Of a stretch of DNA of 9,753 bases, positions 8,464 through 9,753 are shown one piece after another (positions within the stretch are counted from its first letter, which is position 1; every line of letters begins with the position of its first letter). A program made the position numbers and the translations under genes. The stretch spans positions 1-9,753 of the forward strand of contig JACPSX010000028.1 of the NCBI GenBank assembly GCA_016193065.1. The letters are read 5' to 3'. The notes beneath the pieces were generated by a model. That model saw only the letters and a program-made list of their open reading frames with translations, did not search any database and was not told where the DNA came from. This DNA comes from Candidatus Tectimicrobiota bacterium. Lineage in GTDB: Bacteria; JACPSX01.

Positions 8464-8547
8464 GGGTGCAGGGCAGGAGCTAACGGCCCGCGTACACCCC
8501 TGGATGTCATAAAGACTCGATAGGTCCTAATAATTATCAAAAAATCA

Positions 8548-8576
8548 TTGTATAGTAGACAAACGTCTAGTATATT
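8548..8576 (+). promoter_or_regulatory. Promoter of the three-Cys-motif cassette
   Basis: TTGTAT (8548-8553) and TATATT (8571-8576) are separated by 17 bp in a very AT-rich stretch. The -10 matches 5 of 6 consensus bases and the -35 matches 3 of 6, as expected for a regulated promoter. The start should be near 8583, about 20 nt before a GTG codon with AGGAGG. Confidence 0.55.
8551..8574. promoter_or_regulatory. Operator-like 24-bp palindrome inside the promoter
   Basis: Arms TATAGTAGAC and GTCTAGTATA flank a 4-bp centre AAAC and are complementary at 9 of 10 positions. The palindrome fills the spacer and overlaps both promoter boxes, so a dimer bound here would block RNA polymerase. No regulator gene is in view, so the binding protein is unknown. 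Confidence 0.5.
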
Positions 8577-8603
8577 TCATGTAAATTTCTGCCAGGAGGA
8601 AAA

Positions 8604-8786
8604 GTGTTGAGATTGCCGATCCTGCGACCGCTGCAAATGATTGCCTCTTGCAGGACCTATCATAGGAAACTCTTTGACTTTCTTTTCCCCGAGATATACA
8701 AGCAAATTCTGGCTGGGCTCAAGAGAGACGCGAATCACGGGAATGCCAGCTTCCTGACTAAGGCGAGGCTGACTACCATTGAGTGA
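8604..8786 (+). CDS. Hypothetical 60-residue protein, first ORF of the three-Cys-motif cassette
   Basis: I do not recognise this protein. The ORF begins with GTG at 8604, with AGGAGG ending 4 nt before it, and lies about 20 nt downstream of a plausible regulated promoter, so the expression signals are better than for many true genes. It ends with TGA at 8784-8786, overlapping the TTG start of the next gene by 8 bases, which suggests coupled translation. The product is basic, has two Cys/His-bearing or aromatic patches ([14 protein letters not shown]), no clear membrane segment and no obvious helix-turn-helix. It may be a small accessory protein, a leader ORF, or the remnant of a larger gene. 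Base composition is lower in GC than the hyu operon. Confidence 0.45.
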
Positions 8787-9379
8787 TCAGAGCGGCATTG
8801 AGTGGACTGACTCGACGTGGAATCCGGTAACAGGTTGCACGAAGATTAGCCCAGGGTGCAAAAACTGTTATGCGGAGCGTCTAGCTCTACGTCTCAAGGC
8901 GATGAGAAATCCTCGGTATAGGAACGGGTTCTCGGTAACCTTACAGCCTGACCAGCTCACACTGCCTCTCCGATGGCACCGGCCCAGGCGCATCTTCGTC
9001 AACAGCATGAGCGACCTTTTCCATGAGAAGGTTCCTGAAGACTACATCCACCGTATTTTCGAAATCATGACGCGAGCCGATTGGCATATATTCCAGATTC
9101 TCACCAAGCGCAGCGACCGGTTGGCCTCTCTTGCACCGCACCTGCCATGGGCGCCCAATATTTGGCAGGGAGTTTCGATTGAAAACGCCCGGTACACTCG
9201 GCGCATTTTTCACCTGCGGAGATCAATGTCTCATTGCTGGCGTACCTTTCTTTTTCAAGCAATGGGGCGGCAGGACTCCAAAATCTGGCGGTCGAGTGCT
9301 AGATGGAAGAACCTGGAACCAGACGCCCGACCATTCCAGATTAGACATGGCGAAATTTGCGATCCCTTTGGTTTCATAG
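8779..9379 (+). pseudogene. Three-Cys-motif protein, phage Gp37/Gp68 (DUF5131) family, internally deleted and frameshifted
   Basis: From TTG 8779 the frame matches the family well: [14 protein letters not shown] (7-20), the cysteine motif C20-X6-C27-X2-C30, [25 protein letters not shown] (70-86), [14 protein letters not shown] (102-115) and [11 protein letters not shown] (126-136). After about residue 146 (near 9214) similarity stops. It resumes in another frame at 9221 with [17 protein letters not shown] and LDGRTW, ending at TAG 9377-9379. The family normally has several dozen residues between these two blocks, including a GGESG-type segment, so both a deletion and a frame change have occurred. 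The unshifted frame would give a 202-residue product with a foreign tail (stop at 9387). The family is regarded as radical-SAM-like from its cysteine cluster; activity of this copy is doubtful. It directly precedes its usual partner tcmP. Confidence 0.82.
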
Positions 9380-9394
9380 TGGAGTAATGCGTTA

Positions 9395-9753
9395 ATGGAG
9401 CGAGAGGATACCATTGGAGCATGGTCTCTTGAGAAGCTCGGTTTAGTAAGAAAGTACTTGGAGGCATATGTTCTGGTCCTAAGAAAGCAGAGCTGGTGCA
9501 GGGGTTACGAGTATATCGATGCATTTGCAGGAACAGGAAAACCAAAATCCCGCGACGAGCAGAAATACGTAGATGGATCACCACGCATAGCTCTGGGCCT
9601 CTCGCATCCGTTCAGCAGGTATCATTTCATCGAGAGCAGCAATTGGCGGATTAAGAAACTCGAAAGGCTGAAACAAGAATTGCCTAATCGTCATATTTTA
9701 ATTCACCCGGGAGATTGTAATGCAATTCTCTGCAACGAAATAGTCCCAAATAT
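9395..9753 (+). CDS. tcmP: Three-Cys-motif partner protein TcmP (partial, C-terminus beyond right edge)
   Basis: From ATG 9395 the frame is open to the right edge, 119 codons. A weak GGAG lies 10 nt upstream and the start is 15 nt after the stop of the broken three-Cys gene. The N-terminal part resembles the TcmP family: GAWSLEKLGLVRKYLEAY (8-25), YIDAFAGTGKP (40-50), DGSPRIALGL (60-69), YHFIES (76-81) and HPGDCN (104-109). These segments look like motifs I, II and III of a class I SAM-dependent methyltransferase Rossmann fold: a glycine-rich loop after an acidic strand end, then an acidic second strand, then GDxN. TcmP genes are known for sitting beside three-Cys-motif genes, as here; their biochemical role is not established. 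GC is low (43% at 9421-9480), unlike the upstream operon. Confidence 0.85.
   Translation, partial: MEREDTIGAWSLEKLGLVRKYLEAYVLVLRKQSWCRGYEYIDAFAGTGKPKSRDEQKYVDGSPRIALGLSHPFSRYHFIESSNWRIKKLERLKQELPNRHILIHPGDCNAILCNEIVPN

Follow-up and report, generated by a model that had tools for sequence, protein, structure and literature searches.

The window analyzed here, meaning the entire 9,753-nucleotide stretch, corresponds to contig C6:1-9753 of a draft assembly (294 contigs, 2.9 Mb, 86% complete), and the same contig runs on to 10287. At the far end of the window, two genes form a cassette of an already known type, in which TcmP is joined by the three-Cys protein DUF5131 and which PADLOC lists as the candidate system PDC-M41. 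An earlier note on this DNA had named the gene pair as three-Cys/DUF5131 plus tcmP, and matches to PF07505, TIGR04474, and PDC-M41 bear it out. The features are:

8510..8603, + strand: AT-rich stretch upstream of the cassette, where G+C falls
8779..9219, + strand: N-terminal part of the DUF5131 (three-Cys) gene, residues 1-147, TTG start, CX6CX2C motif C20-C27-C30
9219..9221, + strand: junction, about 152 nt absent versus relatives, frame +1 to +2, without Ns
9221..9379, + strand: C-terminal part of the DUF5131 gene, frame +2, stop TAG at 9377-9379
9395..9753, + strand: first part of tcmP, 119 codons open to the window end, with the SAM-binding-like motif YIDAFAGTG

The TcmP–DUF5131 cassette

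The two window genes match both PDC-M41 models (M41A, TcmP; M41B, DUF5131) and are adjacent and in the same orientation; the window M41B copy lacks one block. PDC systems are described as unpublished (PMC11811056), and validation is pending for most of them (PMC12988326). PDC-M41 is listed as a candidate antiphage system. Our literature search found no experimental report on PDC-M41 and no papers on TcmP or DUF5131 function; Sinorhizobium meliloti papers name TcmP in tables only. The cassette is foreign by composition and was probably acquired horizontally. G+C is about 42% at 8464-8603 versus 61-64% across the three genes just upstream. A 60-aa ORF at 8604-8786 overlaps the DUF5131 start; it has no Pfam match and no significant homolog among the fetched loci.

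The tcmP frame, described in the earlier note as clean for 119 codons, indeed stays open from 9395 to the end of the window. These codons score 96.3 bits against TIGR04474 (E 2.8e-27; curated cut-off 53) and match the PDC-M41A model (4.8e-24). The note had also proposed extending the contig to learn whether the gene is full length. It is, apart from an assembly gap of 60 N at 9754-9813 that interrupts it just beyond the window: tcmP resumes at 9814-10212 (profile positions 141-261), again above the TIGR04474 cut-off, and reaches a stop at 10228-10230, which would give about 275 aa, as in relatives. Both halves are open, and the gap between them is of estimated length. In relatives, 19 residues separate the tcmP anchors, which puts the true gap at about 52 nt, not 60. 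Because the 60-N length is an estimate, the difference in frame across the Ns is no evidence of a frameshift.

The block missing from the DUF5131 gene

Frame +1 (8779-9225) matches positions 1-151 of the DUF5131 profile PF07505 (E 2e-56), whereas positions 201-243 are covered by frame +2 (9221-9328; E 1.3e-7). The PF07505 score is 192.8 bits versus a gathering score of 28.9, and the triad C20, C27, and C30 is retained. A complete domain carrying FxSxEP and the GGESG block is not present: profile positions of about 152-200 are absent, and the frame is changed. The PDC-M41B model gives the same picture, with the N-terminal part matching at 9e-69 and the C-terminal part matching positions 198-236. 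The N-terminal part is 72% identical to its relative L008, and the best matches of the C-terminal part include the same relatives. As assembled, the DUF5131 sequence is that of a broken family member. The two halves are the sole PF07505 matches in the genome, and no second, intact DUF5131 was found elsewhere in it.

The junction is sharp. The R147 codon closes at 9219, and the codon for the D in "DQC" opens at 9221. At this point, 113 of the 121 relatives, none of which is closer to the source genome than domain level, carry 51 residues, versus a single nucleotide in the window. Therefore, about 152 nt are missing, a loss that also accounts for the shift from frame +1 to +2. The missing internal block and frame change reported in the earlier note are accordingly real in the sequence; the note had suggested sizing the gap against DUF5131 profiles. 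Among the relatives, Nitrospira moscoviensis (L007) and Nitrospira CG24C (L009) encode DUF5131 proteins of 68% and 67% identity, in the same order, DUF5131 and then tcmP. Both loci are intact and encode 51 residues at the point where a single nucleotide stands in the window. The L007 TcmP is best classed as PDC-M30A type, whereas the window TcmP is best classed as M41A.

Twelve invariant residues fall within the lost block (F155, S157, E159, P160, W175, GGESG 179-183, R187, and W193), as do, in the predicted model, two barrel strands, E153-158 and E175-178. Therefore, a working protein could hardly be made from the gene as written. Outside the block, every one of the 46 invariant residues is retained, along with 30 of the 33 near-invariant ones, and no further lesion is present.

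Partners and predicted folds of TcmP

A survey of 290 diverse genomes yielded 35 readable TcmP loci, and a radical-SAM partner is adjacent or fused in 34 of them. The partner is an adjacent DUF5131 in 22 loci, an adjacent generic radical SAM protein of the PF04055 type in 6, and an adjacent spore photoproduct lyase (SPL; PF20903) in 3. In the remaining 3 (L169, L173, and L243), a radical-SAM or SPL domain is naturally fused to TcmP. The sole partnerless locus holds an 86-aa TcmP fragment. TcmP is therefore almost never found without a radical-SAM partner. The reverse is not so: many phage DUF5131 genes have no TcmP detected nearby.

TcmP–SPL pairs occur in several contexts: with recA and recX; with an S24/HTH repressor; with a type IIG enzyme, a UvrD/GajB-like helicase, and a kinase; and with a type III restriction pair. 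In one case, a 721-aa TcmP-wHTH-SPL fusion sits between recA and recX (L193:7730-11693), an order that suggests a DNA-damage role for TcmP. At two other loci (L256:1-8701 and L257:3-7153), TcmP–SPL pairs are packed closely among genes for restriction-modification, for a UvrD-like helicase, and for a kinase.

Predicted structures of relatives were compared with known folds. The DUF5131 model (L008, pLDDT 89) is closest to SPL, a radical SAM DNA repair enzyme (Z 13.9, rmsd 2.9, 196 aligned residues), followed by viperin and RlmN (Z 11-12). The cysteine triad is invariant, and the similarity of the predicted fold to SPL, viperin, and RlmN spans Z 11-14. DUF5131 differs from SPL in its smaller size, its cysteine spacing of CX6CX2C, and an identity of 12-13%. 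Sequence comparison of DUF5131 with solved structures gave no match, and the profile search reported no PF04055 match for the window DUF5131 protein. Independent agreement with the fold match comes from the gene neighborhoods, in which genuine SPL-family proteins stand in for DUF5131, either next to TcmP or fused with it.

The TcmP model (L018, pLDDT 96) is closest in fold to RlmJ, the 23S rRNA A2030 N6-methyltransferase (Z 14.6), which is also the best, though weak, sequence match of the TcmP profile (E 0.003). The RlmJ motif is DPPY. The TcmP consensus is DPxG, with D121 invariant and P122 near-invariant, and this consensus, together with an identity of about 19%, rules out TcmP as an RlmJ ortholog.

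In our best reading, an intact DUF5131 would belong to the radical-SAM enzymes as a small protein of SPL type, with its three cysteines holding a [4Fe-4S] cluster, and TcmP would be an RlmJ-like protein with a SAM-dependent methyltransferase fold. Together the two would form a single machine that acts on nucleic acid and repairs or modifies bases during defense or DNA-damage responses. We consider the pair a likely two-enzyme module for nucleic-acid repair or modification; its role, including cluster binding, the nucleic-acid substrate, and a function in defense, we infer. With this comparison, what had been a neighbor of unknown joint function becomes a testable two-enzyme machine that joins a methyltransferase fold to an SPL-like radical SAM protein in DNA-damage and defense contexts.

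Assembly error versus deletion

The state of the assembly bears on how the break arose. A tblastn search with the fetched loci reached only 21 kb of the sampled sequence and was uninformative, so frame switches were sought instead by a codon-usage scan of 361.5 kb from the same genome (14 + 20 contigs, one of which, C4, reads wholly as N). The scan flagged 20 places, 4 of them at Ns and some of them probably genuine gene borders. The housekeeping breaks described here were picked from these flags, several of which were inspected, and do not constitute a systematic count. Losses of roughly 50-150 nt without Ns affect ilvB, nuoL/nuoM, and argB/argD. In ilvB, beside ilvN (L203:3850-5437, contig C17), profile positions 110-149 are replaced by 3 nt with no N, a loss of about 39 codons or 117 nt, and a second frame change follows. 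The nuoL match ends at position 604 of 630, and nuoM restarts at 16-24 of 486 (L207:2480-2620, contig C21), joined without a stop, intergenic space, or N. Similarly, argB has lost C-terminal residues and runs straight into argD. A 4-N run breaks the frame of cmk, which has no other copy (L187:10453-10456, contig C11). A molybdopterin oxidoreductase gene (L214:2294-4593, contig C28) changes frame within a stretch of seven Gs that has no Ns. N-runs are rare, with seven in the 361.5 kb, and yet one sits 535 nt from the DUF5131 junction.

The N-less missing blocks of about 100-150 nt elsewhere in the genome resemble the DUF5131 lesion, and one organism is unlikely to have lost so many genes of this kind. 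The paralogs of ilvB and nuoM in the genome weaken these examples somewhat, their loss being less absurd than that of cmk. Because N-less block losses occur in housekeeping genes and an N-gap lies near the junction, we favor a join error in this fragmented, scaffolded assembly over decay as the source of the roughly 152-nt loss. We infer this artifact origin as fairly probable, and the organism's DUF5131 gene is probably intact. The lack of other lesions in DUF5131 also counts in favor of an artifact. An accessory gene that had recently suffered a genuine deletion would, however, look no different. That such a deletion, with its frameshift, inactivated DUF5131 and has left tcmP intact for now is a possible but less likely alternative. 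The junction contains no Ns, both halves are otherwise perfectly conserved, which fits a young lesion, and the cassette is compositionally foreign; accessory genes are often lost. The same kind of block loss in ilvB, nuoL/nuoM, and argB/argD and the neighboring N-gap speak against it, as does the finding that the one other TcmP lacking a radical-SAM partner is a fragment. An intact tcmP beside a dead partner would be an exception, a further reason for caution. The biological decay proposed in the earlier note is probably not real, the view that the cassette has lost one of its halves is weakly supported, and the window copy belongs to an already known cassette type.

Two further readings were weighed. 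In one, DUF5131 would function in a short or shifted form, either as a natural variant lacking the block or through programmed frameshifting, and both frames are indeed open across the junction. Nevertheless, none of the 121 relatives clearly lacks the block, so the naturally block-less family members that the note had named as a refuting case did not emerge; a single shorter span, in L100, is poorly aligned at this place, with 4 matching residues in the C-terminal part. Moreover, the block holds the 12 invariant residues, GGESG among them, and both model-barrel strands, and 51 absent residues are beyond what a frameshift can supply. This reading is largely refuted, and its probability is vanishingly small. 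In the other, which the note had raised, TcmP functions alone here and can do without its lost partner. Except for the N-gap, tcmP is open over its full length, but with 34 of 35 TcmP loci partnered, and a fragment as the exception, a lone TcmP is unlikely in general and very improbable at this locus.

On our favored reading of an assembly join error, the break in the DUF5131 gene is probably artifactual, and the comparison it prompted is what proves useful. It is doubtful that the deletion is real, that the intact TcmP here is naturally partnerless, and that, in a broader sense, TcmP with any of the three radical-SAM types forms one unrecognized class of two-enzyme systems for nucleic-acid repair or modification. 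If the deletion were real, this locus would be exceptional against the 35 sampled loci and would offer a natural test of the activity, or cost, of the methyltransferase-like half on its own.
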